This document shows, in pieces, positions 3,698-24,987 of a DNA stretch of 26,479 nt. The notes beneath the pieces are model-generated. The model was not told the origin of the DNA and made no database searches. It saw nothing but the letters and a program-made list of their open reading frames with translations. How positions within the stretch are numbered: the first letter of the stretch is position 1; each line of letters starts with the position of its first letter. The DNA comes from a virus: the IMG/VR virus record IMGVR_UViG_3300021963_000564, positions 1-26,479 of that record. One strand, given 5' to 3'. The position numbers were made by a program, and so were the translations under genes.

Positions 3698-3886
3698 TTA
3701 CACGCTCTGCATCTGGTATGCGTGGTCAACCAATTCCCTGACGCATTTGAAATACTCTTCCTCGGCACTGCCATAACAAAATACCTCAGTCCTAAATCCT
3801 CCTGCCTCAACCCACAGCTTCCACCTCCATCCCTTCTTATCCCACTCCTTCTTCACTTGCATTGCCAACTCACCCTTGCTTTTCAT
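3698..3886 (-). CDS. Small hypothetical protein, tryptophan-rich
   Basis: 62 aa from ATG 3886, which has GGAGG just upstream inside the preceding gene; ATG 3862, eight bases past the preceding stop, is an alternative (54 aa). The sequence is charged with a WDKKGWRWKLWVEAGG core, then FRTEVFCYGSAEEEYFKC. The alternating pattern suggests a small beta-sheet domain followed by a helix. No family recognised and no membrane segment. It sits between two other tiny genes in an overlapping array. Confidence 0.55.
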   Translation of the reverse strand: MKSKGELAMQVKKEWDKKGWRWKLWVEAGGFRTEVFCYGSAEEEYFKCVRELVDHAYQMQSV

Positions 3887-4061
3887 CTTCCTCCAATATT
3901 TCTTTTGCAATCAAAGCCACCGCATCAACCATCGCAATAATTCTAATAATATCTATTGCGTGACCGTGAGAAGCGCGATCCCTCTCTACTGCAAGCTTGT
4001 CGCGTGCCGTGAGAAGGATGTCGCGCCCCCACTTGAGCCTAGCTTTAGACTCGACCAGCAT
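3870..4061 (-). CDS. Small helical hypothetical protein
   Basis: 63 aa. Its ATG (4061) shares one base with the stop of the upstream gene (TAATG), which supports both being translated. The product is mostly amphipathic helix (RDILLTARDKLAVERDRA, then DIIRIIAMVDAVALIAKEI) with an acidic end EEDEKQG. No known domain recognised. The regular heptad-like spacing suggests a helical hairpin or oligomer. Confidence 0.6.
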   Translation of the reverse strand: MLVESKARLKWGRDILLTARDKLAVERDRASHGHAIDIIRIIAMVDAVALIAKEILEEDEKQG

Positions 4062-4243
4062 TACGAGCCTGACCGCATCCGAAACTTACGAGGCGATTTG
4101 TTGCTCTTCCCAGCAGCAGAGAGTGCTATCGCAATCATCTGCTGACGCGAACGAGGCGTTCCACCAGCACCGCGAGCCTTGCCCTTCTTCTTATTGTCCA
4201 TAGACAACTCGTGCATATTCTTTGATACGTCTTTGCCTAGCAT
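4061..4243 (-). CDS. Small basic protein, DUF6496-like
   Basis: 60 aa, strongly basic. The middle reads KKKGKARGAGGTPRSRQQ followed by MIAIALSAAGKS. The block (S/R)RxQ-x-IAIALS-A-(G/R)K resembles small phage and bacterial proteins of the DUF6496 type, whose function is unknown. ATG 4243 has AAAGGAG eight bases upstream, placed in the last codons of the Mom-like gene, so both belong to one transcript. Nucleic acid binding is plausible from the charge only. Confidence 0.65.
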   Translation of the reverse strand: MLGKDVSKNMHELSMDNKKKGKARGAGGTPRSRQQMIAIALSAAGKSNKSPRKFRMRSGS

Positions 4244-4246
4244 ATT

Positions 4247-4915
4247 CTATTCTCCTTTATATTCTTTCCACTCTTTCCAATTTGCAATATCCCATTTGAG
4301 CAGACACTTATCTGCTGGGTTGCAAAAATATACAAACCTATGTTTCCTAGTCCTTGGAACTATCACAGCATCCTCCATCGTTCTTGAGTGCCTGCTGTGC
4401 TTGTTGCCAACCACCTTGTCACCAGATGACCTCTTGTCTGATAGGCCAGTATAGGTCCAATTTGTGGCCGCGTAGATCGCGCCATTATGACCAGCACCAG
4501 TATCGGCATAGCTAACAAGAATCAAACATGGGCGCAATTTGGAAAGCTCTCTTATGCTCCAAGATATAAATCTGCTCTCAGAGTTCTTTGGGCATCTGTC
4601 ATCAATCCATAATCTGTTTAACTCATATACCCTGGGCGCATTCTCCTCACCGCATATCCCTCGGCATAAGTGTGGCGATGCTGGTTTTCCGAATGATATT
4701 ACGCCAAGCAACTCGCTAGAATTAAAACATCCAAACGACCAGCTACAAGGCACGGCTCTATGGGCATAATGATTCTCAACCACCACATCATTAAGTGTCT
4801 GCGATGTTATCACCTTGAATTTAAGTTGGAGCGCAGAGGTCGGAATTGCACCGCCGTCCTCCCCTTGGAATAGGGGAAGTTCTACTACTGAACTATCTGC
4901 GCGTAAATTTGTCAT
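4247..4915 (-). CDS. Mom-like DNA modification protein with tRNA-like 5' end
   Basis: 222 aa. Residues from about 33 onward match the Mom family (phage Mu adenine carbamoylmethylation-type modification, a GNAT-like fold): VVVENHYAHRAVP, a WSFGCFNSSELLGVISFG strand pair, YELNRLWIDD, and a late LVSYADTGAGHNGAIYAATNW block. Such proteins modify phage DNA so host restriction enzymes fail to cut. The first 31 residues have no place in that fold: codons 5-30 are a 76-nt tRNA-Gly-like sequence read in frame. ATG 4915 nevertheless looks real because it overlaps the stop of the upstream gene as ATGA and no later ATG precedes the Mom core. A GTG or TTG start inside the leader would give a conventional protein. 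Family call is confident; the exact modification is unknown. Confidence 0.8.
   Translation of the reverse strand: MTNLRADSSVVELPLFQGEDGGAIPTSALQLKFKVITSQTLNDVVVENHYAHRAVPCSWSFGCFNSSELLGVISFGKPASPHLCRGICGEENAPRVYELNRLWIDDRCPKNSESRFISWSIRELSKLRPCLILVSYADTGAGHNGAIYAATNWTYTGLSDKRSSGDKVVGNKHSRHSRTMEDAVIVPRTRKHRFVYFCNPADKCLLKWDIANWKEWKEYKGE
4827..4902 (-). tRNA. tRNA-Gly(TCC)-like sequence inside the Mom-like gene, probably degenerate
   Basis: On the minus strand, 4902-4896 and 4837-4831 form a perfect 7-bp acceptor stem (GCGCAGA/TCTGCGC), followed by T and an encoded CCA (4829-4827). The total is 76 nt. TA, then a 4-bp D stem (GTTC/GAAC) with a 7-nt loop, then a 5-bp anticodon stem (TCCCC/GGGGA) with TTCC in the loop, giving anticodon TCC. 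Defects: the anticodon loop is 8 nt, the T stem pairs only after a one-base shift with a G-A mismatch and leaves an extra C, and the T loop reads TGCAATT instead of TTCRANN. It is therefore either a decayed tRNA or a tRNA mimic, embedded in coding sequence. Confidence 0.5.
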
Positions 4916-5127: not shown

Positions 5128-5207
5128 TTATCACCCCATAACAATATCAATAGCCCAATCCCAATAGCCATTACTCCGACTAAACGGATTTGATCGTCAA
5201 TGCTCAT
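5124..5207 (-). CDS. 27-aa membrane micropeptide
   Basis: The frame starts at ATG 5207, overlapping the stop of the oxygenase gene (ATGA), and ends in TGA overlapping the next ATG (ATGA). The peptide is MSIDDQIRLVGVMAIGIG then LLILLWGDK: a charged start, one ~17-residue hydrophobic helix and a charged end. It exactly fills the space between two credible genes with four-base overlaps on both sides, which is unlikely for a random frame. Function unknown. Confidence 0.55.
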   Translation of the reverse strand: MSIDDQIRLVGVMAIGIGLLILLWGDK

Positions 5208-5773
5208 CGCCAAGCTGGTCCAGTCAACCAAGCCACCAACACCCAGCGCGTCCCCCATATTGGCGCACGCGCACGATGTTCGATGTAGGATGGGAACCAG
5301 CAACCCGCGCCTTGCTCTTGGATAAACCTAGCGTTCTCTAGGTCAGCCTTAACTTGCAAGCCACCGCCTAGGTACTCGCTTGGGTCAGATAGATTGACCA
5401 CCATCGTCATCTTGCGAACTGGCGCCTCGGATGTGTAGGTATCGTAGTGCCACCAAAACTGCTGGAGTGGATTGTACTTTAGGATCTGCAACTGCTGCAC
5501 GCCAGTAATGTCAAAGCGGTAATGCTCGGCGTTTACGGCCATAGTCAATTCGTTTACAATTGAGTAAAGCCACTTGTAATGGGTAGCCATCGGAACCCAA
5601 CAAGACGAACAGCTACGCGCAAACGATCTCCTAGTTGTGCCATCCTTCTTCATCACAGTCGCACGCTTCATCCCGATTACCTCTGCGTCTTGGCGTAGCA
5701 TCATGCATTGGGTGGGGGTCAACACATAGCGGTCTACGGCTGCGGTTAAAACCTTCTGCTTAAACTCGCTCAT
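5204..5773 (-). CDS. 2-oxoglutarate/Fe(II)-dependent oxygenase, PKHD/prolyl-hydroxylase type
   Basis: 189 aa. The double-stranded beta-helix core is clear: the iron ligands are H109 and D111 (WHYDTY) and H166 (SYIEHRA), and R176 (GTRWVLVAW) binds the 2-oxoglutarate carboxylate. LSDPSEYLGGGLQV and CWFPSYIEH are typical of the PKHD hydroxylases (PiuC-like) and phage relatives. The enzyme couples decarboxylation of 2-oxoglutarate to hydroxylation of a substrate. Substrate unknown: protein side chain, or a nucleobase given the Mom-like and glycosyltransferase neighbours. ATG 5773 overlaps the upstream stop as ATGA. The N-terminal ~85 residues are family-variable with a small Cys cluster (C55, C58). 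Confidence 0.85.
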   Translation of the reverse strand: MSEFKQKVLTAAVDRYVLTPTQCMMLRQDAEVIGMKRATVMKKDGTTRRSFARSCSSCWVPMATHYKWLYSIVNELTMAVNAEHYRFDITGVQQLQILKYNPLQQFWWHYDTYTSEAPVRKMTMVVNLSDPSEYLGGGLQVKADLENARFIQEQGAGCWFPSYIEHRARAPIWGTRWVLVAWLTGPAWR

Positions 5774-7249: not shown

Positions 7250-7518
7250 TTGCCAGCGTCAAAATCTTCTGTTGCCTGAATGGATAAAAGATCATCAGCC
7301 TTTTCCAGCAATTCCTTGCTTGGATTCTTTATGTCCTCAGTAGCAGTTGAAATTTCAATCTTTGACATAATCACATTGTTGACCACTTCGGCAAAGTAAT
7401 GTTCCCTATATCCAACTGGACCAATATCCTCGGTGATAGTATCAATCTCTGCGTTGCCATACGCAGTATACTTTTCTCCATTAAACTCAAAATCAACGCT
7501 TACATCTTCCATAATCAT
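7246..7518 (-). CDS. Hypothetical acidic protein, 90 aa
   Basis: The product is MIMEDVSVDFEFNGEKYT, then AYGNAEIDTITEDIGPVGYR with EHYFAEVVNNV, and an acidic helical end. It predicts as a small beta domain with a helical tail, similar in general look to short phage proteins of unknown role. ATG 7518 overlaps the upstream TGA (ATGA). No catalytic motif seen. Confidence 0.6.
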   Translation of the reverse strand: MIMEDVSVDFEFNGEKYTAYGNAEIDTITEDIGPVGYREHYFAEVVNNVIMSKIEISTATEDIKNPSKELLEKADDLLSIQATEDFDAGK

Positions 7519-7811
7519 AATCTTGGTACTTCTTTCTTTATTTGAGCCAACACAAACAGTGTTCTTACCAGCGCACGCTCCAAGTGGTCAACACTTGTCT
7601 CGCCGTTATTATCAGGACAAGGCGTGGACTTGTGTAATTGCATCTGCGCTGTGGCTAGGTGACGTACGGCTCTGGCGATATGGTAATCATGGGTTGGCCT
7701 ATCCTTCTCCAGCCAATCTCCGTATGCGGATTTATCCGAACCTTTTCCCATCACCCGCCAGATTATCTCGCCAGCAGCATCCCCCATCTCGGCTATGCTG
7801 GGCGCAGTCAT
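7515..7811 (-). CDS. Hypothetical helical protein, 98 aa
   Basis: The start is ATG 7811: it overlaps the TGA of the upstream 43-aa gene (ATGA) and has AAAGGAATGGAAG upstream, so the longer GTG start at 7838 is rejected. The product has HIARAVRHLATAQMQLHK followed by a polar loop and DHLERALVRTLFVLAQIKKE. The two histidine-bearing helices recall small phage helical-bundle proteins of the nucleotide-handling or DUF5664 kind, but I cannot assign it. No membrane segment. Confidence 0.6.
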   Translation of the reverse strand: MTAPSIAEMGDAAGEIIWRVMGKGSDKSAYGDWLEKDRPTHDYHIARAVRHLATAQMQLHKSTPCPDNNGETSVDHLERALVRTLFVLAQIKKEVPRL

Positions 7812-7939
7812 TTCTTCCATTCCTTTATAGTGAACCACGCAATCATTAAGAAGAAGGCGGCATTCAACAGGCGAAGAACCATGTCAGTAATTTTTATGAA
7901 CAAGTCCCATGCTTGGGCGATTAAACTCCAGTCATTCAT
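7808..7939 (-). CDS. 43-aa membrane protein
   Basis: ATG 7939 (GGAG nine bases upstream) overlaps the TGA of the upstream micro-ORF, and its TGA overlaps the next ATG; both junctions are ATGA. MNDWSLIAQAWDLFIKIT is amphipathic, and MVLRLLNAAFFLMIAWFTI is a membrane span followed by KEWKK. The positive-outside end resembles other small phage membrane peptides. Function unknown. Confidence 0.6.
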   Translation of the reverse strand: MNDWSLIAQAWDLFIKITDMVLRLLNAAFFLMIAWFTIKEWKK

Positions 7940-9992: not shown

Positions 9993-10172
9993 TTAGTTCC
10001 GCCAAGTTTTATTAGCGTTGCTAATATCCCTATTAAATTTGTTAATCATTGCTCTTATGGTCATCTTCTCAACAATTTCTTGGTTTGCCTTAACCCACGC
10101 TATGGCCTCATCATAGGACTTTGTATCCTGCAACCCATCCTCAAACTGATCCCACGCCTCCTTGTCCTTCAT
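9993..10172 (-). CDS. Small helical hypothetical protein
   Basis: 59 aa from ATG 10172, which overlaps the TGA of the preceding gene (ATGA); a longer frame reaching TTG 10259 would overlap that gene by 90 bases and is rejected. The product is all-helical and charged (MKDKEAWDQFEDGLQDTK, then SYDEAIAWVKANQEIVEK). No known domain. It is followed by a 54-nt gap, one of the few real gaps in this region. Confidence 0.6.
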   Translation of the reverse strand: MKDKEAWDQFEDGLQDTKSYDEAIAWVKANQEIVEKMTIRAMINKFNRDISNANKTWRN

Positions 10173-10552
10173 AGATTCTGGAATACACGCCAACTCTGCC
10201 CTGTCGATGGGCAAGTGGTAAATGTGATCGACTTGCATTTTGAGATAGGGAGTAACCAAAATAGATCATCGGCCATAGCCCACATTGCCACATAATCCAC
10301 CCCACTGATTGCACGCTTGGGCAGGTTATATCCATTGCCAGTGCTTGTGGAGAACCGATACCGAGTGCGCCCAGGCTCAACATTCTGCGCGGTCTTAACT
10401 TGGATGCGGAAAAACTTATTATCTTTTTCAGCTACCACATCGTAACCAGAAAAATCCTCGTAAGGTAACAGCACCGAATACCCGCACCGTAGCAGCGCAC
10501 CAGTAACGCGAGCCACCCCAACTGCACCTATTTGGCGTGATGATAATTTCAT
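10169..10552 (-). CDS. PD-(D/E)XK endonuclease-like protein (PDDEXK_11-type)
   Basis: 127 aa. A restriction-endonuclease-like core is seen: GYDVVAEKD (D38), FRIQVKTAQ (Q51-x-K53), and a late DLFWLLPISKCK segment, which is typical of the group I intron-type or Hjc-like endonuclease family of phages. The usual early Glu of the GEL motif is replaced by Ala (RQIGAVGVARVTGAL), so activity may be altered. Start ATG 10552 has only CAAGG immediately upstream. It is divergent from the plus-strand gene, leaving 38 bases for both starts. Confidence 0.7.
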   Translation of the reverse strand: MKLSSRQIGAVGVARVTGALLRCGYSVLLPYEDFSGYDVVAEKDNKFFRIQVKTAQNVEPGRTRYRFSTSTGNGYNLPKRAISGVDYVAMWAMADDLFWLLPISKCKSITFTTCPSTGQSWRVFQNL

Positions 10553-10554
10553 CC

Positions 10555-10583
10555 TTGACGGCTTTCGGTTTGTGCTAGAGACT
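10555..10583 (+). promoter_or_regulatory. Weak promoter candidate for the plus-strand gene
   Basis: TTGACG (10555-10560) matches a -35 box, and TAGAGA (10576-10581) is a poor -10 after a 15-nt spacer. The region is only 38 bases between divergent starts. A phage-polymerase promoter cannot be excluded. Confidence 0.2.
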
Positions 10584-10590
10584 TTTTCCT

Positions 10591-10953
10591 ATGAAAGCAA
10601 TAACAACTGTAGCACTGATGGCGATGCTTGTGGCATCGGGGTTGGCAGAAGATGATGATGAAGTAAGTATTGGTGATTTTGCTGGAGGTGTACTTGGCAA
10701 ATCAGCAATCATTACTGGCAGAAACACCGCAGTAATATCAGATGGTAAATTCATCTATTCCAATGGCAGGGGTTTTGCGACATCTGGTGGTTATTACGGT
10801 GCGAGTGGGAAGCAAGTATTTGGTAATGGCAAGCTAGTCGTTAAATCTGGTAGCTTTTTTTATGGAAGCTCCTCCTCTTGGAAGAACGGAAATTCTTATT
10901 TTGATGGAACAAAAAGTTCTTGGATTACTGGAAGGCAAAGAATATCCGACTAG
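10591..10953 (+). CDS. Exported Gly/Ser-rich small protein (lone plus-strand gene)
   Basis: 120 aa. Residues 1-19 are a signal peptide (MKAITTVALMAMLVASGLA, cleavage likely before EDDDE). The mature part is rich in Gly, Ser, Tyr and Asn, with repeated -SNGRGFATSGGYYG- and GNGKLVVKSGSFFYG-like strands, suggesting a small beta-rich secreted or surface protein. No ribosome binding site precedes ATG 10591. It is the only plausible plus-strand gene in the window, surrounded by minus-strand genes, like a moron that alters the host surface. The stop overlaps that of the convergent lysozyme gene. Family not recognised. Confidence 0.6.
   Translation: MKAITTVALMAMLVASGLAEDDDEVSIGDFAGGVLGKSAIITGRNTAVISDGKFIYSNGRGFATSGGYYGASGKQVFGNGKLVVKSGSFFYGSSSSWKNGNSYFDGTKSSWITGRQRISD
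10950..10953. other. Shared palindromic stop CTAG of convergent genes
   Basis: The palindrome CTAG at 10950-10953 contains TAG on both strands: plus 10951-10953 ends the exported protein gene, and minus 10952-10950 ends the lysozyme gene. The two convergent genes therefore overlap by three bases with no terminator between them. Confidence 0.9.
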
Positions 10954-11966
10954 CCAAGTCCAAGCCCCAATGGGGTCGGCGAGTATTCCTCGACTGGCTC
11001 TGCGGCTTTTGGATTTACGCCCTTGGCATACATTGTTGCTGATTGCCTCCTTTTGTTGGAGCGATTTACTATTCCTTGATATAGCTTCGCCCTATTGGGA
11101 TCGACCTCTGCCATTGTTTGCTCTTTTCGTAGGTAGGCATCCTCAGTGGCGTTAATCAATTGCTCTGGATCTACTTGATTCATTGCTTCTAATGTCTTCT
11201 TTCCAAACGCTCCGTCAACTTTTACTGGGATTCCCAACGAATTTAATCCCTGTTGAACTAACGTCGTATAACCGCTAGGACCACGATTAAAACCCAAATC
11301 AACGGCTTGAGCCTTCAATGGTTCTGGCACAAGATTTGCAATTGGAGCAGTGTATTCAAGCACATAGTCTACGCTTGCTCTCTCTCTTTGTGCTGGAGGT
11401 AATGCAGATATACGCTTAAACGCCTCTGGATGGTACTTATCCGTAATTCCAGCCACTTCTCTTGTGCCGCCGTAGTCTCCAGATGGAATGTCATATACAG
11501 CTAGATTGCCTTGCTTATCCCTTCTTGCCTCCCAGTTAATGGTATTATTGGCAACCCAATCATTAAGCGCATTCCCAGTCATTGCTCTAGTCCCGCGAGG
11601 TTGCACTGGCCTTGGCGCGGATGGCTCTTTGTATGGCATTGCGCTGGCTGGCACACCGCCAGCACCATCATTAAACTTGTTCTCTATTTGTTGCCGCAAA
11701 TCTGCATCCATCATTGCCCTTGTATTCGGCGCGCCACCTACTGTAGTGCCGACTTCGCCAGCACCAGCAGGCTCAAGCAGTAGGCGAGAAGACTCTCCGC
11801 GAATATCCTCTGGAACTGGAGCGTAGGGCTTGTTGGTCATATCCTCCGCAATAGAACGATTAGTCATATCTTTCTCCATATTTCTTCCTTCTAAAATCCT
11901 ATTCATTGATTCTCGCATTTGTGGTGTGAGAACATCCTTGCTTGGGTTTACGTTGAATTTTGCCAT
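10950..11966 (-). CDS. Virion-type lysozyme, GH108 with peptidoglycan-binding domain
   Basis: 338 aa from ATG 11966, which has AGGAG seven bases upstream; the longer frame to 11984 lacks a ribosome binding site. The first ~125 residues are polar and low in structure. Residues about 130-215 resemble GH108 muramidases: NNTINWEARRD with E146 in the place of the catalytic Glu, GDYGGTREVAGI, and YHPEAFKRI. Residues about 221-300 match PG_binding_3 (NRGPSGYTTLVQQG and KVDGAFGKKTLEAM). It would cut the glycan chain of peptidoglycan, either for DNA entry or lysis. Its place straight after the ejection protein, with one base between them, favours a virion role. It is unusually long for an endolysin. 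Confidence 0.75.
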   Translation of the reverse strand: MAKFNVNPSKDVLTPQMRESMNRILEGRNMEKDMTNRSIAEDMTNKPYAPVPEDIRGESSRLLLEPAGAGEVGTTVGGAPNTRAMMDADLRQQIENKFNDGAGGVPASAMPYKEPSAPRPVQPRGTRAMTGNALNDWVANNTINWEARRDKQGNLAVYDIPSGDYGGTREVAGITDKYHPEAFKRISALPPAQRERASVDYVLEYTAPIANLVPEPLKAQAVDLGFNRGPSGYTTLVQQGLNSLGIPVKVDGAFGKKTLEAMNQVDPEQLINATEDAYLRKEQTMAEVDPNRAKLYQGIVNRSNKRRQSATMYAKGVNPKAAEPVEEYSPTPLGLGLG

Positions 11967-11967
11967 A

Positions 11968-14900
11968 TTATAACTCCTGTCCAAACTCTATACTTCTTTG
12001 GTTCTTTCTAATGAAGTTCTCTCTAGCGGTCTTGCTTGCTTTGTTGTAGGCATTAGACAGTGTTTTGACTTGTTCTTCTGGATCAAGCCTTCTAAATCTT
12101 TTATCACCTAAAAGTTGCTCCGCAACTTGCCTGTTTGCCTTGCCAACCGCGCTTGCGTATTCCTCATAAAGCGTTGGGTCAAGTCTAAATCTTGCTTTCT
12201 GACCAGTCCTTCTTTTCAATACTTGCAAGTCTCGGTCTGGAACTTGTGGGATGCCTTCGGTTTTGCCAGTCTTTTTATACAAATCATAGACAGCAAGAGC
12301 CACATCATCGTAAGTTATTTTTCTTGGCCTTGTTGGATCTATGAAATTATAGATAAATGGATCAACGCCTTCTGGTGTTTGTGGAACTGGCTCTCCCCAT
12401 ACGTTTATTTTTGATGGCAAATCTTCAGCACTCCCAGGCCACTTTCTCTTGACCACTTCCTTGAATATGTTGTAGGACTTTGTTCCAAAGTCGCCACCCT
12501 CAATATCCTTAACTTGAATCTTGTCTGGCATATTTTCGCTCATATACCTAGAAACTGATGCTAGCTGATTTGGCAATACTGACGCTGACAACGCATTGTA
12601 GTAACTCGCAAGCCAAGCGTCCATGTCTTTTGCTTCGCCCCTAGAAATTGTGCCAAGCAAGCTATTCATGTTTCTTAGGAAGCTTTGGTTAAATCCAAAT
12701 TTAAGCGTTTCTGGAAGTGTTGCGCCCCATGCTTCACCCAGCGATTCGGTTCCACCCTGAGTTGCTTGATTGGCTGCGTTGCGAGTTGACATAATTGCAC
12801 CAACAACGCCAAGTCTTTCAAGAGATCTCAATGAATCTCCAGGTTCCATCTCTTGCCTAGATCCAGTTTGCAAAAACCTTTTTACTCCATCAATGTTTAT
12901 CATTTTGGATGGAGCAGCTTGGAATTGAACATCCCGCGCCTTATCTGATTTTGGCATTTCGTCTGTTATAACGCCAGCTCTGGATAAAATATCGGCAACA
13001 TTCCCCATTGCGTACCCAACAATAGACTTTGCGAATTGTAGTTTTGCTTGCCTAAAATTGCGTTGTCCCTGTTCGGCAAGCCCTCGTATAAAAGAGTATT
13101 CTGGAATTGCGTACTGGAGGATTTCGTCTATTACGTTTGTTGGCGTTTTTTGAAATGGCAGGACAGCAGTTGTAGCTATTCTAGCTGCGCCTGCTAGTGG
13201 CTTGCCTATAAGCGGTGTTTTGCCCAAAAACCTCGGTGCTAGTTCTGTCAAATACTGTATGCCTCTTGATAGCTTTGTGTCCTGCTGATATACGGCTTCA
13301 AGGGTTTCGGACGCAACCCTATCCAACTCTTCCTGCGTTGGGTATCTTACTGCCCTTTGCAATGCCTTACCCTTCAACTTCTCTAATTGCCTAGCCTCGG
13401 TTAGCAGTCTAGTTTGAGCCATTCTTAGCGGAGGAGCATCTCCAAGTTGAAGAAGCCTAAAACTAACCTCTGGACTAAGCCCAAGCGTGCCTTCTGCCAG
13501 AAGCCTTACCCGATCTATCGCCTTTGCAGCAGTTCCTTCCAGACCATCGGCAATAGGCTCGGCCAATCCCTTGCCAGTAAAGGCTCGCTTCAAAGACCTA
13601 ATAGGTCTAAATCCTCGTATGTTTTCTCCAGCTAAAAGACGCTCTGGGGATACGCCCTTTACCAGCCCCACTAATCCCTCCTTCAGGCCTCTGCCTCCAC
13701 CTTTGGCAACTTCAATTGACCTCTCTATTGATCCGCTCCCGATTGGAGACATAAATTGTTTGCCTTCTGCCAAATATTTTTCAGCAACGCCTTTTACACC
13801 AGGTATTCTTGTGGCAACTGGCCTTATTATATTTCTTTCAATTTGATCCAACAACGATGCCACCTGCCTAGTCGCAGCGCGAGCTGGCATATTTACAGTA
13901 TTCCCCAATATATTTGCGCCTTGGGATAGCGTTGTTAAGAGATTGCCTCTTATATAATCTGGTATTTGCATTCCCAATTCTTTTGCCAATAAATCTGCCT
14001 CAAATTCAGCCAGTTTTCCGCTTGCAAACAAAGCCTTATCTTCTAGTTCTTTCGCAAGCTTATCTGCTTTCTTAGAGAAATCGGTTCTTGCATTTTCATA
14101 GGCTTCGCGCATTGCTGTTTCTGCAACTTGCTTATTTTTGAATAAAGTTATAGCCCGTTTCTCTAACTCTGGAGTAAGTTGCTTCACGGCATCGGCGACT
14201 TGCATTGCCTTTTCGCCTTTTGTCGCATACCTCCTTGCGGCATCTTCAAGCGTTCTTTCTAAAGTAAATGCATATTGAAATGGATTAGTAACAGCAAGCT
14301 TGGCTACATTCATCAATTGAGCAGCATTTGTATATCCTTTTCTAACCTCAAGGAATTGAGCTTTAGCTGCTGGTATATCGCTGAGATCAAACGATTGGTT
14401 CATATTTATTTGCTTTGCAACCTTGCCGACTAAATCATCTGATTGAGCAAATAAATTTATTTGTTGAGGTGAAAGTTTTTGTAAATTTTTCGCAATACCT
14501 GTTGGCGAGAAAGTATTATACAAAGCCCTATTATCAGCAATTGCCTTGGCAATGTCATCTGGCGTGCGTTCGGAGGCTATCAATCTTTCCGCAAACTTAC
14601 TTATCTTCTGCCCTGGTTCAGCTTGTGCCTCTACATTTGCTATCAATTGCGCTCTTTCCTTGGCAATATCTTCGCTTGTTTTCGCAACTCCACCCAATGG
14701 CAATTCTTGCTGTACTGGCAATTGCTCAGCAACCTCTCCAGCAACTTTGGGGACAACAGCTTCCTCAACCTTCGGCGCAACAGTCTCAGCCTTTGTGAAT
14801 GCACCGCGAACAGCCTGTCCTGCTGCCGTCAATCCTTTTCTACCAAGAGCCGCAATTCCTCCAGCAGTTGGCGTTAAGGCTGATGCGGCAAAAGTAGATA

Positions 14901-15339
14901 CTGGATATTCAGCTATATCACGTTGTCTTTGTGCCTTAAACTCTTCTACTGCCTTATCCCCAGCAATCATCCTTGCGGCTTGTTCTTGCAACCTTCCAGC
15001 CGCGCCATAAGAAAGAATTGCGCCTGTTGCTCCTAGTAGAAACTTTGGAACTGCTGGCACTGGTAGCGTGCCTAAACCTCTGGCTGTAAGCCCAGCAACT
15101 GTGGTTGGTACAAACTCTTCAGCAACTGCTCTGCCAACAGCACCAGCGCGTGATGGACGATCAGTCGCCTGCTCTGTGAAATACTTTTCTATGTCAAGAT
15201 TTTGATCTGGCCTTTGTTGTTCTTCTTGCTGATCCTTGAAGTAAGAAGCAAGTTCGTCTGGCTGTTGCTGTGCTTGTTGCGCTTGCTCGCCACTATCTTC
15301 TTGGGCGAAATATTTGTCCAAATCGTTCGCAACTGCCAT
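11968..15339 (-). CDS. Large internal virion / DNA ejection-type protein
   Basis: 1123 aa, the largest gene in the window. It begins with Gln/Glu-rich disordered sequence holding three (D/E)-L/I-x-x-YF motifs (DLDKYF 6-11, ELASYF 29-34, DIEKYF 49-54). A Gly/Ala-rich hydrophobic stretch follows around residues 75-115 (VPTTVAGLTARGLGTLPVPA). The remainder is mostly long Ala/Lys/Glu helices. No enzyme motif was found. Size, position between tail and lysozyme genes, and the helical, amphipathic composition match the ejection proteins of short-tailed phages that form a channel through the cell envelope. It follows the coiled-coil gene by five bases and has no strong ribosome binding site. Family identity by context. 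Confidence 0.65.
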   Translation of the reverse strand: MAVANDLDKYFAQEDSGEQAQQAQQQPDELASYFKDQQEEQQRPDQNLDIEKYFTEQATDRPSRAGAVGRAVAEEFVPTTVAGLTARGLGTLPVPAVPKFLLGATGAILSYGAAGRLQEQAARMIAGDKAVEEFKAQRQRDIAEYPVSTFAASALTPTAGGIAALGRKGLTAAGQAVRGAFTKAETVAPKVEEAVVPKVAGEVAEQLPVQQELPLGGVAKTSEDIAKERAQLIANVEAQAEPGQKISKFAERLIASERTPDDIAKAIADNRALYNTFSPTGIAKNLQKLSPQQINLFAQSDDLVGKVAKQINMNQSFDLSDIPAAKAQFLEVRKGYTNAAQLMNVAKLAVTNPFQYAFTLERTLEDAARRYATKGEKAMQVADAVKQLTPELEKRAITLFKNKQVAETAMREAYENARTDFSKKADKLAKELEDKALFASGKLAEFEADLLAKELGMQIPDYIRGNLLTTLSQGANILGNTVNMPARAATRQVASLLDQIERNIIRPVATRIPGVKGVAEKYLAEGKQFMSPIGSGSIERSIEVAKGGGRGLKEGLVGLVKGVSPERLLAGENIRGFRPIRSLKRAFTGKGLAEPIADGLEGTAAKAIDRVRLLAEGTLGLSPEVSFRLLQLGDAPPLRMAQTRLLTEARQLEKLKGKALQRAVRYPTQEELDRVASETLEAVYQQDTKLSRGIQYLTELAPRFLGKTPLIGKPLAGAARIATTAVLPFQKTPTNVIDEILQYAIPEYSFIRGLAEQGQRNFRQAKLQFAKSIVGYAMGNVADILSRAGVITDEMPKSDKARDVQFQAAPSKMINIDGVKRFLQTGSRQEMEPGDSLRSLERLGVVGAIMSTRNAANQATQGGTESLGEAWGATLPETLKFGFNQSFLRNMNSLLGTISRGEAKDMDAWLASYYNALSASVLPNQLASVSRYMSENMPDKIQVKDIEGGDFGTKSYNIFKEVVKRKWPGSAEDLPSKINVWGEPVPQTPEGVDPFIYNFIDPTRPRKITYDDVALAVYDLYKKTGKTEGIPQVPDRDLQVLKRRTGQKARFRLDPTLYEEYASAVGKANRQVAEQLLGDKRFRRLDPEEQVKTLSNAYNKASKTARENFIRKNQRSIEFGQEL

Positions 15340-15344
15340 ATAAT

Positions 15345-15977
15345 TTATGGCACTACTTGATAGCCCATTTCAATATATTTTTTTGAATCCCTATTCCATA
15401 CATCAGATGGAACTGTTGCCGTCTTTCCATCTGGATTGCGTATTTTAACGCCAGTTTTTCTTTGTGCTGGTTGCTGTTTGGCAACCATAGGCTCTGGTTC
15501 TGGAGCAGATCCAGCACTCTCCATAGGAGCAGAAATTTCTGGAGTACCCATATAGCCAGCACGCTCTTCAAGTAATTTCTTGAGTTCCTCTTGGCGGGTT
15601 GTGGCTCTCTGACCGAATGTTTGACTTCCAATCATTCTTCCCAAAATATCTATGCCTGGGTATTCGTTGCTAGTTCCCGCAGCTTCTCTTGCTTCTGTTT
15701 CGGCTTTAATTGTTTCCTGCCTCTTTGCTTTAATCCTTTTCTCTACAGCCTCAATTCTTGCTTCGTTCATTTCGCCCGCAAAAGTATCTTGCGCTGTTTG
15801 CATATTTCTTCCAGCACCATTAAGAAATGGCTCAAAGTCTGGGTTGGATTTTACCGTATCATATTCATCCGCATAAACTCGCGCCTTGGGTCTTCCGTCT
15901 GCGTCAATATCAATATAAGACCGCATTGGTTTTGCGACTTCTTTTTGCCCATCAAGATTAAAATTAAACATTGCCAT
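15345..15977 (-). CDS. Coiled-coil virion-associated protein
   Basis: 210 aa. After MAMFNFNLDG the central part is a charged coiled coil (EARIEAVEKRIKAKRQET continuing as an alpha-helix). A Pro/Glu-rich linker follows, then a small C-terminal domain (GVKIRNPDGKTATVPSDVW, then YIEMGYQVV) resembling the short beta domains of phage structural proteins. Start ATG 15977 has GGAG seven bases upstream. It probably acts with the adjacent large ejection-type proteins. No named family. Confidence 0.6.
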   Translation of the reverse strand: MAMFNFNLDGQKEVAKPMRSYIDIDADGRPKARVYADEYDTVKSNPDFEPFLNGAGRNMQTAQDTFAGEMNEARIEAVEKRIKAKRQETIKAETEAREAAGTSNEYPGIDILGRMIGSQTFGQRATTRQEELKKLLEERAGYMGTPEISAPMESAGSAPEPEPMVAKQQPAQRKTGVKIRNPDGKTATVPSDVWNRDSKKYIEMGYQVVP

Positions 15978-16000: not shown

Positions 16001-18166
16001 TTAAAACGATTTGTTAAAGCTAAACAAATTCCCAAGACCAGAGGCAATGTTGCCAAACGCTTGTGATCCTGTTTCCTGCCTAGACAATGCCCCAACCTGC
16101 GCGCCGTAGGTGCTTGCTTTGTAATCAGCCTGCGAGCGAAAAAGCTGGTTAAACGCATTCGTAAGCGCAACAGGAATTGACGGGTCAACAGTCTGATAGA
16201 AATTAGCAGCCGTAGACGGCTGTTGGTTAAATCCACCAGATGTAGGCTGATTCGCCTGAATGTAACCCTGAAATGCGTTTTGCTGATTTGCTGTTCTTGC
16301 TTGTCCAAGGTTGTAAAGCGAAGGACCGCCAGCAACAAAGTTTGCAGCCGCACCAAGCCTATTCTGTTGCAACGCATCTCTAAAGGCAATATCGCCACGG
16401 AGCGCATCAGATAGCGTCTGTCCAGAAGACAAGAACTGACCACCAGCACCAAGCTTGGACTGCTGAAGAGCATTGCGAAGTTGAACGTCCCTAGCCATTG
16501 CGTCTGAAACTGTTTGTCCAGAGGCCAACATTGCACCTCCAGCTTGGTATCTTCCTTGTTGCAACGCCTCGCGAAGCTGAGTATCTCTTGCAAGAGCATC
16601 AGATGTTGTTTGACCTGAAGAAAGAAATTGAGACGCAGCTCCATATCTTGCTTGTTTTCTTGCCTCGCCAGCCATGCCAGTTGTAACGGCCTCTTCAACA
16701 GCGGGGGCAACACCAAATATATTACCGCGAGCTGCCTGTGCGCCACGAGAGTATTGTTGATATTGTCTTTGTTCTTCTGCCCCAAGCCTAGATCCCAAGG
16801 CCAATTGAGCAGCCGTTTCGCCCTCAACCTGCCTGCGTAACGCCTCGGCTTCTGGGCTTGTTGTTGCGCCAATTTTGCCCAATGAGTAACCTTGAATTTC
16901 TTTTTGTAATTGCGCCCTGTACGCCTCAGTCTGTGCGTCCCGAGTTGCACCAATAGGAGACGTGGAATAATCCCTATAACCTTTTTCTAACTGCGCCCTA
17001 AACGCCTCAGTCTGTGCGTTCTGAGTTTGACCAATAGAAGATGTTGCCAACTTCCCGTACTCTTTGCCCAATGTGGTAGCAGTTTTGTAGGATTCTGGAT
17101 CAATTTCTTTAATCTGAAGTGCAGCGTTTTGCTCGGGGAGATTAAGAAATGATCTGAAAGATGTTATTTCCTTTGCCGCCTCTGGGCTTCCAGCCGTAAT
17201 TGGTTTGTAAGTTTTCTGGAGGTTTTGAGCATTTGTTACTGCCCCAGTTACGCTTTTCAGATCATTCTTTAGCTGATCAATAAATAATTGAGAATTTTTC
17301 CTGTTTGGATTATTGGCATCCATTTGATCAAGCAACGATTGCGAAAGCTTGATTTTCTGATTGATGCCAACAATTTGAGTATTCCCATCCTCAATAGCCT
17401 TAGAAATCCTTTTTTGTCTTGAAGTATTTAAGTCATTCAATATCTGGTCATTTGTAACTTGTGAATTTAATTTCTTAGCCAAGTCAGACAGGGCGTAATT
17501 ATTTTGAGCAGAAAGGTCTAATTCTGCTGGAACTTTTGACTCTCGTTCTGTTGGAATTAAATACGACTCCAGAACGCTCTGAAGTGGGGCTTTTTTCTTT
17601 TCAAGAGCTTCTATTTTCTTGAGCCTTTCAGGAGAGAACGATCCCTTCGTTTGCATTATCTCCTGCTCTTCGTTTGCAAATCTGCCTTCCTTTTGGCCGT
17701 GTTGATTGTAATGACGTTCCGCGCTGTAGCCAGCAGGCTTTACTTCTGGATATTTTTTATAATAATATTCTGAGTCTAGCTTTGTCGATGCTGGAGCATT
17801 CTTTAGTGCATCAATTTCAGAATTGATTGCATCAATCTTTTGCGTGTATGATGCTATCTTTTCATCGCTGGCCGCATAAGATCCGCCAGTAACTCTTTTA
17901 ATTTCTTGAGCTAAAACTTGATTTTCTGCAAAATTCTTGTCATAAGCAATTTTTGCTTGCTTGTCTTCATATTCTTTTACAAATTTATCTGCTTGTTCCT
18001 TAGTGCTGGCCTGTTGCGCTCCAGCACTTTTTAGCTGACTCGTCCAAGCAGATGAACCAAAATTAACTCCGCTAATCCCAAGGTCTGAAACTTGTTGGTT
18101 TTTATATGCCTCATTTCCGCCTGCATCAGAAACTTCGACTACTTTTCCCTTGTAAACAACGTACAT
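16001..18166 (-). CDS. Repeat-containing internal virion or tail protein
   Basis: 721 aa. The first ~60 residues contain an odd YVVYKGKVVEVSDAGG strand pair, then polar helices follow. Two repeat families sit in the C-terminal half: a 27-aa unit (IGATRDAQTEAYRAQLQK) about 2.5 times, and a 32-aa unit (ASGQTVSDAMARDVQLRNALQQ) about 3.5 times. Both are Ala/Gln/Arg-rich helices. No enzyme motif is visible. The position between a proline-rich small protein and the coiled-coil/ejection genes suggests a pilot or ejection protein. Start ATG 18166 follows GGGACAAT. A 320-aa minus-strand frame overlapping it is a by-product of the repeats. Confidence 0.6.
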   Translation of the reverse strand: MYVVYKGKVVEVSDAGGNEAYKNQQVSDLGISGVNFGSSAWTSQLKSAGAQQASTKEQADKFVKEYEDKQAKIAYDKNFAENQVLAQEIKRVTGGSYAASDEKIASYTQKIDAINSEIDALKNAPASTKLDSEYYYKKYPEVKPAGYSAERHYNQHGQKEGRFANEEQEIMQTKGSFSPERLKKIEALEKKKAPLQSVLESYLIPTERESKVPAELDLSAQNNYALSDLAKKLNSQVTNDQILNDLNTSRQKRISKAIEDGNTQIVGINQKIKLSQSLLDQMDANNPNRKNSQLFIDQLKNDLKSVTGAVTNAQNLQKTYKPITAGSPEAAKEITSFRSFLNLPEQNAALQIKEIDPESYKTATTLGKEYGKLATSSIGQTQNAQTEAFRAQLEKGYRDYSTSPIGATRDAQTEAYRAQLQKEIQGYSLGKIGATTSPEAEALRRQVEGETAAQLALGSRLGAEEQRQYQQYSRGAQAARGNIFGVAPAVEEAVTTGMAGEARKQARYGAASQFLSSGQTTSDALARDTQLREALQQGRYQAGGAMLASGQTVSDAMARDVQLRNALQQSKLGAGGQFLSSGQTLSDALRGDIAFRDALQQNRLGAAANFVAGGPSLYNLGQARTANQQNAFQGYIQANQPTSGGFNQQPSTAANFYQTVDPSIPVALTNAFNQLFRSQADYKASTYGAQVGALSRQETGSQAFGNIASGLGNLFSFNKSF
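16330..16648 (-). repeat. 96-bp tandem repeats (32-aa units)
   Basis: Unit starts fall at 16648, 16552, 16456 and 16360, an exact 96-bp period, in the C-terminal half of the 721-aa protein. The units keep SGQT-x-SDA-x-x-D-x-x-x-RxALQQ and end in a shorter copy. Codon differences between copies are many, so the duplication is old and kept for the protein. Confidence 0.8.
16810..17035 (-). repeat. 81-bp tandem repeats (27-aa units)
   Basis: IG-(Q/A)-T units begin at 17035, 16954 and 16873, spaced exactly 81 bases. Two copies share AQTEA(F/Y)RAQL; the third is more diverged (PEAEALRRQV). Confidence 0.75.
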
Positions 18167-24273: not shown

Positions 24274-24513
24274 TTAACCAGCTATGTAGCCAATCACCTT
24301 GCCAGTTCCAGCCGTGTAGCTGTCGAACTCGCCATAGATGATGTTGCCAGAGCCAATCGTAACGCCAGTCAGAGTGCCATCATATTTACCGCTAATCGCG
24401 CTAAACGTGGTATCTGAAAGCATTTGGATTGCCCAATAGCCAGGTGTTGCCGTTCCAGTGCTTCCTACGGAAAATCCGTATTGACCTTGGAATTTATCTA
24501 ATGCGCGTGACAT
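24274..24513 (-). CDS. Small structural protein, 79 aa
   Basis: 79 aa. MSRALDKFQGQYGFSVG, then STGTATPGYWAIQMLSDT and SGKYDGTLTGVTIGSGN: Gly/Thr-rich beta sequence. The beta-strand-rich composition is typical of small head or tail decoration proteins that appear near the capsid gene. ATG 24513 shares one base with the stop of the upstream gene (TAATG). No family. Confidence 0.55.
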   Translation of the reverse strand: MSRALDKFQGQYGFSVGSTGTATPGYWAIQMLSDTTFSAISGKYDGTLTGVTIGSGNIIYGEFDSYTAGTGKVIGYIAG

Positions 24514-24707
24514 TAGGTGTGAAGGGCAATCCGATAGGACGTGCCGTTAAGAGTCACGTTCAAGGACGCAGGAGATGTTGCAACGGTATTAACCGTTCCA
24601 CCGCTGGAGCTTGCCGTAAACTCAATTACGTTTGTGAAGCCTTGAGTGTCAAAGCGGATAGCCTTGTTCTTGGCTTTACGAGTGCTTCTTACAAATTCAT
24701 TCGCCAT
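24513..24707 (-). CDS. Small structural protein, 64 aa
   Basis: 64 aa. MANEFVRSTRKAKNKAIR, then FDTQGFTNVIEFTASSSGG and a C-terminal LNVTLNGTSYRIALHT. AAGGAG is a few bases before ATG 24707. The NGTS-x-x-I ending echoes the tail fibre's C-terminus (SINGTSRKI), hinting at a shared module. It overlaps the upstream gene by eleven bases. Confidence 0.55.
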   Translation of the reverse strand: MANEFVRSTRKAKNKAIRFDTQGFTNVIEFTASSSGGTVNTVATSPASLNVTLNGTSYRIALHT

Positions 24708-24987
24708 ATTTTTTTCTCCTTAAAGCCGCACGTTTGATGCTATCTGGCGTGTACTGGCTTCTAAACCTACTGCCAAGTTTTTGTTCCTGGCGGTAGTACC
24801 CCTTCATCAAATTTGTTTGATTGACTCCCAGCGGGTTGTCGAGGGGTTCGCCAACCCCCACTAGGCTCAATCTTTGAGGGACGGTGAATCGTTTAAGGTA
24901 ACGAGGGACAGAATCCCTTTCGGCCACAGCCTTTTCCAGTTCGACAACTTTCCCATTTCTGGAGTCCTCGTACTGGTAAATAGGCAT
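24697..24987 (-). CDS. Hypothetical protein, 96 aa, MPIYQYE start
   Basis: 96 aa, beginning MPIYQYEDSRNGKVVELEK and then VPRYLKRFTVPQRLSLVG. The opening resembles the FmdB-type MPIYEYxC fold but there are no cysteines for zinc binding, so it is a zinc-free variant or an unrelated beta domain. The C-terminal half is basic (RFRSQYTPDSIKRAALRRKKY), fitting nucleic acid or capsid contact. It shares one base with the upstream stop (TAATG) and lies among head genes. Confidence 0.5.
   Translation of the reverse strand: MPIYQYEDSRNGKVVELEKAVAERDSVPRYLKRFTVPQRLSLVGVGEPLDNPLGVNQTNLMKGYYRQEQKLGSRFRSQYTPDSIKRAALRRKKYGE

Follow-up and report, generated by a model that had tools for sequence, protein, structure and literature searches.

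The 26,479-base linear virus record IMGVR_UViG_3300021963_000564 of IMG/VR (positions 1 to 26,479; hereafter the window) carries on its plus strand a gene for a small exported protein, which we call SEC. The mature domain of this protein is a hypervariable island, of which ten types swap between conserved flanks. In the pool of related phages that can test it, the SEC allele co-varies with a short junction of two virion-module proteins, formed by the C-terminal tail of g19 and the N-terminal tip of g18. We consider it rather probable that SEC is an exported, allele-matched superinfection-exclusion protein that would act on DNA ejection, a role suggested by sequence comparison.

The open reading frame (ORF) encoding SEC is a real gene. 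Its coordinates, its length of 120 residues and the 38 nt (10553-10590) that separate its start from the divergent start of g14 at 10552 are all as a previous sequence-only reading of this DNA had given them, and its description as a small, separately oriented exported protein with homologues is supported as well. Homologues were found at 13 loci by protein search and confirmed with tblastn, while a profile search returned 141 relatives, of which the best 80 were kept. A motif upstream of the gene, present a single time in the window at up to three mismatches, retrieved by itself 113 stretches with 96 distinct contexts. In nearly all of these 96 the next ORF opens with a similar signal peptide; L107 is a chance match. 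Within subtypes, the median ratio of nonsynonymous to synonymous substitution rates (dN/dS) lies between 0 and 0.16 (eleven subtypes), indicating purifying selection. For type 0b the ratio of means is 0.55 and the median 0.11, the former value probably stemming from copies of unequal length that were compared without alignment. Finally, we used g14 as the anchor of a census, which retained 80 of 91 loci, six of them running off the contig end and two too short; an exported-looking ORF fills the slot in 72/72 readable loci. The census applied an ORF rule (start MK, VK or LK, 90-199 residues) and not homology; 20 of the 72 ORFs are less than 0.75 similar to any type of the first set, and their starts look signal-peptide-like by eye.

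After removal of 5 duplicates from 106, we had 101 full SEC copies, each on its own contig record, although some are near-identical. Grouping by the mature part gives 12 subtypes at 80% identity and ten types at 65%, with mean identities of 17-58% between types and 77-99% within them. The g14 flank is 82-98% identical between SEC types, so it does not follow the SEC typing. The phages G008 (type 4) and L024 (type 8) share 94% identity over 900 nt upstream, 91% in the signal peptide and 98% over 1.4 kb downstream, against 52% in the mature part of SEC. Trees of three flanks (25, 29 and 27 contigs) imply at least 12, 12 and 14 changes of SEC type, compared with 3 on SEC's own tree. More than one SEC type was present in all 16 samples having more than one contig. 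Pairs of the same type make up 3/49 (6%) of the pairs within samples, versus ~13% expected, a count made by hand that we do not use as evidence.

To separate linkage from selection we relied on the contigs of SEC types 3, 4, 5 and 8, since these four types share one pool of g16 and g17. The scan covered 426 segments of 30 alignment columns in gene families with at least 8 pool contigs and scored how well each segment predicts the SEC type, as the area under the receiver operating characteristic curve (AUC). Against a median of 0.52, an AUC of at least 0.85 was reached by nine of the 426 segments, every one of them within ~110 columns of the C-terminal end of g19 or ~60 columns of the N-terminal end of g18. 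This junction lies ~6 kb from SEC, and most segments in between are uninformative. At the g19 tail, identity is 0.90-0.99 between contigs of the same SEC type and 0.00-0.04 between contigs of different types, giving an AUC of 1.00, and the N-terminal tip of g18 reaches 0.96-0.99. Values of about 0.5 were obtained for g16, most of g17, the later part of g18, most of g19, and g20, g21 and g22; a few segments of g17 and g19 lie at 0.64-0.73, and g18 falls to 0.5 by column ~110-140. When the type labels were permuted, none of 2000 permutations reached the observed value for the g19 tail and none of 2000 for the g18 tip, while four control segments were reached by 183, 635, 1449 and 1619 of 2000. 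A tree of the 45 N-terminal residues of g18 requires 3 changes of SEC type, the minimum for four types, and a tree of the 120 C-terminal residues of g19 requires 5. The co-variation of SEC and junction is thus solid in this pool.

Across the 70 contigs in which both genes are complete (one tail, that of G005, was read from a split ORF), each of 11 SEC subtypes falls in a single g19-tail class, with nine tail classes in total. By g18 tip, type 3 is found in two classes, which differ by an N-terminal extension, and types 0b and 6 share one. None of the 70 has subtype 0c, for which the single readable g18 tip (L095) is type-6-like.

A profile search supplied 17 contigs outside the first set, 11 of them testable, among which two pairs look near-duplicate. 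The g18 tip was as predicted by SEC in 11/11 and the g19 tail in all 10 in which it is in frame; the eleventh tail is out of frame. In L247 (7557-9104, minus strand) the g19 end is out of frame, unlike in its relatives, which may be an assembly error or a real change. Of the other six contigs four were too short, and L235 and L243 carry a new SEC subtype; the tail of L243, LIPSFSFSK, is 0b-like, and its SEC is nearest to subtype 0c at 0.54. A further 20 contigs were chosen through g14. Where their SEC is at least 0.80 similar to a known type, tip and tail match in 3/3 cases (types 7, 3 and 1); at 0.75-0.79 they match in 2/5 (L369 and L370, both 0.77 to type 3). The remaining 12 are new SEC subtypes, mostly with new junctions.

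Among these phages we found natural swaps. L371 resembles the type-4 phage G037 in g16 (87%), g17 (82% over 884 aligned residues) and the body of g18 (88%). Its SEC, however, is 0.28 similar to that of G037 and 0.97 to that of the type-7 phage L115, and its g18 tip and g19 tail are of type 7; between L371 and L115, BLAST gave no hit for g17 or the g18 body. Judged by these comparisons, L371 is a natural recombinant with type-4 g16, g17 and g18 body and type-7 SEC, tip and tail. L369 combines a type-3-like SEC with a type-3 tip and tail, while against the type-3 reference its g18 body gave no hit and its g17 is 28% identical over 153 residues. L376 has the same combination of SEC, tip and tail, with g17 at 64% over 466 residues and the g18 body at 42%.

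Upstream of SEC lies a promoter-like element resembling a sigma-70 promoter. Its second hexamer ends 7 nt before the ATG, so that transcription would begin at or next to the start codon and the mRNA would be leaderless. Such a message would account for the missing ribosome-binding site that the sequence-only reading had noticed: the best Shine-Dalgarno match is 3 nt (GAG). The same lack was found in 5 of 14 other window genes checked. A scan with a stock consensus promoter did not list the TTGACG/GAGACT site. TTGAC stands 35 or 36 nt before the ATG in 111/118 contigs; in the remaining seven the script chose a nearer TTGAC. Because most first-set contigs were retrieved with an exact match to TTTGWSCTAGAGACTTTT, a motif overlapping the upstream block, conservation of this block is partly by construction; the TTGAC part lies outside the motif. 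Diverged relatives retain TTGAC at 34-36 nt though most other bases differ (L368 has TTGCC). In L211, L212, L213, L237 and L247 the upstream sequence differs and TTGACA is found at the same distance, next to SEC types 2, 0a and 0b; SEC alleles therefore cross lineages.

The signal peptide claimed by the sequence-only reading is borne out by a signal peptidase I-like site, read from the sequence: an alanine precedes D, E, G or Q at the expected cleavage point in 99/101 full copies. A cysteine occurs near this point in 1 of the 101, so that there is no lipobox. The maximum hydropathy of the mature protein over 19 residues is 0.59-1.17 in 11 representatives. Glycine, serine and tyrosine make up 40% of the mature part, as that reading's remark on composition had it, although they are chiefly glycine and serine.

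These observations are consistent with the following mechanism. SEC, expressed from its own promoter, would be exported through its signal peptide, which the sequences support, and after cleavage would reside in the periplasm or outer envelope. There it may recognise the ejected g19 C-terminal tail and g18 N-terminal tip of a related phage, either directly or through an envelope site that they use. It would then block the assembly or function of the conduit, leaving a second phage of the same type unable to inject its DNA. An exported SEC would miss g18 and g19 in the cytoplasm but meet ejected ones, and since it matches the junction of its own phage, the exclusion would be self-exclusion. New tails would escape the resident SEC, a matching SEC would then benefit its carrier, and many discrete types could in this way be kept in one population. 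A wider reading, which we put forward only tentatively, is that these phages, without known lysogeny, may possess a compatibility-type system, in which selection would hold together a dozen or more discrete recogniser/junction pairs although ~4-6 kb of recombining DNA lies between the partners, and each pair would be exchanged as a matched unit.

The assignment of the neighbouring genes bears on this mechanism. The g17 form of L115 matches phrog_770 (P22 gp16, 'DNA transfer protein') with an E-value of 4.9e-12 over 586 residues, P22 gp16 itself giving 2.3e-266, and also matches a gene of phage Pan3 annotated as ejection protein (23% over 53%, E 1e-15). By these matches, the L115 form is a remote homologue of P22 gp16. 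The window's own g17 had no clear hit in the PHROG comparison, and g18, g19 and g20 gave no profile match to the annotated P22-type ejection proteins of phage VSN-002, for which the alignments were shallow. We call g19 gp20-like by position because gp15 and gp20 are described as the periplasmic tunnel in a review (PMC8954989); no sequence match to an annotated translocase was found for g19. The gene g16 probably belongs to the ejection module. Among relatives, g19 is ~500-800 residues long with a highly variable first half, which recalls the mosaic P22 gp20. In L053 (10379-10588, minus strand) the type-3 g19 tail is a domain of ~60 residues (CWVAREVYG...); a hypothetical protein of phage HMO-2011 contains a related stretch close to its end (49%, E 2e-11).

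Several observations weigh against allele-matched exclusion at ejection. The correspondence is not one-to-one: types 4 and 7, and likewise 5 and 8, share a g19-tail class with small differences. L382, L384 and L385 have a SEC 0.75-0.77 similar to type 5, yet carry another tip and tail, common with L377. The tail of L374 ends as type 4 after a type-6-like stretch, with a SEC 0.53 similar to type 6 and 0.46 to type 4; that of L383 joins a type-5-like stretch to a type-0b end, with a SEC 0.50 similar to type 5; and L368 combines a SEC 0.64 similar to type 4 with a 6-like tip and a 0b-like tail. These mismatches and hybrid tails imply that the match is one of subtypes, perhaps of parts of the tail, rather than a simple code. 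First-set SEC types outside the pool each come with a separate g17 class, which leaves the partners inseparable there, and over all contigs 99/1098 segments reach an AUC of 0.95. Contig counts are not independent because some contigs are near-identical. Only position and size place g18 and g19 in the ejection module, and a further three g17 proteins (692-721 residues) fell short of phrog_770 at E 0.001. PADLOC gave no hit for seven SEC proteins. Lastly, two P22-type SieA proteins with 24% identity are reported to have the same target specificity (PMC10883804).

The locus nevertheless resembles that of P22 sieA, which occupies a convergent place like that of SEC, 22 nt after gene 16, and which PMC10883804 places between genes 16 and 9 in all prophages examined there in detail. 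The same source describes SieA as blocking DNA injection, with escape mutations in the C-terminal regions of gp16 and gp20. Like SieA, SEC is encoded on the opposite strand just after what would be an ejection gene (g16), seems to have its own promoter, and comes in discrete sequence types, of which SieA has three at ~25% identity. Unlike SEC, P22 SieA resides in the inner membrane; it is encoded by temperate phages, and 22/66 P22-like phages have it. SEC differs from the polytopic SieA in its cleavable signal peptide and the low hydropathy of its mature part, which lacks the membrane character of SieA. A SEC-type ORF also fills every readable slot, and a search for tyrosine integrases (serine integrases lay outside it) found none in 12/12 records of SEC phages, namely 11 of 33-38 kb and the window, with 14/14 controls recovered. 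Whereas the two SieA types share their target, the matching of SEC alleles to the g19/g18 junction suggests allele specificity.

T4 Spackle is described as a periplasmic early protein that excludes related phages by binding a virion component (PMC7677548). Like SEC, it is exported and soluble, with a cleavable signal peptide. Spackle binds the lysozyme domain of gp5, whereas the lysozyme-like neighbour of SEC, g16, does not appear to be its matched partner in the pool, since g16 similarity does not predict SEC type there. There was no sequence match between the two in the PDB search and no Foldseek match at E 0.001; weak fold matches exclude nothing. T5 Llp, another small phage-made periplasmic exclusion protein, is reported to act on the host receptor FhuA (PMC9586334). 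It is a lipoprotein, unlike SEC with its missing lipobox, and it acts on a receptor, whereas SEC is not associated with the tail-fibre gene as a whole. Exclusion aimed at DNA-delivering proteins, as proposed for SEC, also includes HK97 gp15 and tape-measure-directed exclusion; HK97 gp15 is a membrane protein of a siphophage prophage, unlike SEC, and is not known to show allele matching. For the SEC family itself no relatives were detected; its likely function would place it with superinfection-exclusion proteins, but not as a member of SieA, Spackle or Llp.

Two specific partners were considered and rejected. As a cognate inhibitor of the lysozyme-like g16, SEC would be expected to follow it, yet types 3, 4, 5 and 8, which are 19-38% identical, share g16 proteins that are 92-97% identical, and g16 segments score AUC 0.45-0.56 in the pool. 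Receptor blocking matched to the tail fibre g24 was rejected on a whole-protein AUC of 0.50, its best pool segment reaching 0.76 (12 contigs). Genes in a similar convergent place in Pam5 encode, by eye, unrelated membrane-type proteins.

Among alternatives to exclusion at the ejected junction, an unlikely one is that SEC masks or alters a host envelope protein which a given junction type uses for DNA entry, SEC and junction both addressing the same host factor. It predicts the same co-variation and has a precedent in the reported action of T5 Llp on a host receptor (PMC9586334). Given the lack of association with g24 as a whole, any such factor would act downstream of adsorption. Different hosts are not needed, however, as several SEC types occur per metagenome, and direct binding would explain the close match to short stretches of the junction at least equally well. 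It is improbable that SEC is immunity-like, guarding the producing cell from its own new g18 and g19 at the membrane or timing lysis, with exclusion secondary: the same cognate match would be required and the convergent g16 is lysozyme-like, but virion proteins are made in the cytoplasm whereas SEC is exported, and g16 similarity is no predictor of SEC type in the pool. Slightly less probable again is that SEC aids infection or assembly as a positive co-factor with an obligatory match to g19 and g18. The filling of all 72 slots is more typical of a core gene than of an optional exclusion gene; set against this, g18 and g19 are in the virion block, and SEC is an exported protein whose gene has the opposite orientation and a separate promoter-like element.

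The sequence-only reading had proposed a moron or lysogenic-conversion surface protein, which is now very improbable. An independent plus-strand unit encoding an exported, beta-rich protein agrees with it, but every readable slot is filled, no tyrosine integrase was found in the 12 records searched, and SEC alleles follow two virion-module genes rather than behaving as optional cargo. That reading had also raised a chance frame, and although the window protein has no Pfam or PADLOC hit and a single chance row in the PDB, its homologues, purifying selection within types and presence throughout the census refute this idea by conservation.

Searches for relatives of known function and for a fold gave little. 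The window SEC had no Pfam hit; among 17 relatives, two matched Adhesin_Dr and one Cupin_2, all weakly. The SEC profile gave nothing better in the PDB than one chance row at E 0.86. The comparison with PHROG gave one weak match (phrog_21109, E 0.012). Two AlphaFold models (predicted local distance difference test, pLDDT, 81.5 and 71.6) concur in a beta meander together with a short helix; in the first run, the four remaining models had pLDDT 43-65. Foldseek searches of PDB and BFVD with the first model gave no match that reached E 0.001. In a second structure comparison the best Z was 4.7 (7qh3_C, root-mean-square deviation 2.9 over 80), which is not interpretable, and we make no fold claim. 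The window SEC had no relative among 50,697 phage records. Pattern-limited scans of genome contigs gave no relative of SEC or of the capsid protein, and hence no homologue in bacterial genomes, where the sequence-only reading had suggested looking. In the literature, covered mostly at the level of titles and abstracts and largely in its open part, we recognised nothing on the SEC family or on allele-matched exclusion in such phages, which is not proof of novelty.

The features of the locus are listed in the table. The g16 gene overlaps the SEC end by 4 nt, an offset kept in 61/79 copies. The sequence-only reading had called SEC the only believable plus-strand gene of the window. In part this stands, since all other plus-strand ORFs of at least 60 residues overlap a minus-strand ORF and most are shorter than the one they overlap; three of them (3876-4145, 7433-7849 and 24429-24737) are longer than the minus-strand ORFs beneath them. 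The contigs of SEC relatives reach 38 kb, and one of 37.8 kb carries portal, terminase, capsid and primase genes, with portal at both ends as in a circularly permuted genome.

Table. Features of the SEC locus and of the linked virion-module genes in the window
Feature	Position	Strand	Basis or remark
SEC gene, exported 120-residue protein, type 2 allele	10591..10953	+	ORF, homologues, dN/dS
Signal peptide, 19 residues, conserved across first-set alleles	10591..10647	+	alignment, cleavage-point residues
Mature hypervariable beta-rich domain, swapped between phages	10648..10950	+	types, identities, models
Promoter-like element TTGACG, 17 nt, GAGACT	10555..10583	+	ends 7 nt before ATG
g14, PDDEXK_5 nuclease, conserved divergent flank	10169..10552	-	Pfam E 7.5e-16; 82-98% mean identity between SEC types
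g16, lysozyme-like with PG_binding_3	10950..11984	-	E 7.5e-8, phrog_315; convergent with SEC
g17, large virion-module protein	11968..15339	-	
g18, virion-module protein, N-terminal tip matching SEC type	15345..15977	-	
g18 N-terminal tip, ~40 residues, part of SEC-linked junction	15858..15977	-	AUC 0.96-0.99 in type 3/4/5/8 pool
g19, mosaic virion-module protein, gp20/gp15-like by position only	16001..18166	-	
g19 C-terminal tail, ~30 residues + stop, strongest SEC-linked segment	16001..16093	-	AUC 1.00 in pool

Elsewhere on the minus strand, the window encodes a Mom-like DNA modification protein (4247-4915; phrog_1384, E 6.3e-49), with one full match (39%) among the loci compared, many of which end before this region, and a 2OG-Fe(II) oxygenase (5204-5773; phrog_61, E 4.9e-22), with 42 full matches among them. 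In G019 and L023 an ORF of 263 residues is inserted at the junction of SEC and g16; the L023 copy has an HEYGH motif and looks metalloprotease-like by eye.

Of the exclusion proteins that target ejection proteins, SieA is the best described, and no allele specificity was seen between two of its diverged types. In the present case, population genomics points, ahead of experiment, to an exclusion-like protein and to a short, defined stretch of two virion proteins as its probable partner, and co-variation scans across viral contigs appear able to find partners of orphan phage genes. If the proposed role is true, the SEC phages would offer a natural matrix of cognate and non-cognate pairs for learning by what means a phage DNA conduit is stopped by a small exported protein. 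They would also be a clear example of phage genomes in which selection keeps two distant alleles together. Under the more tentative compatibility-type reading, a phage would admit other types while excluding its own, rarity would maintain the types, and mixed infection, hence recombination, would be steered between types.
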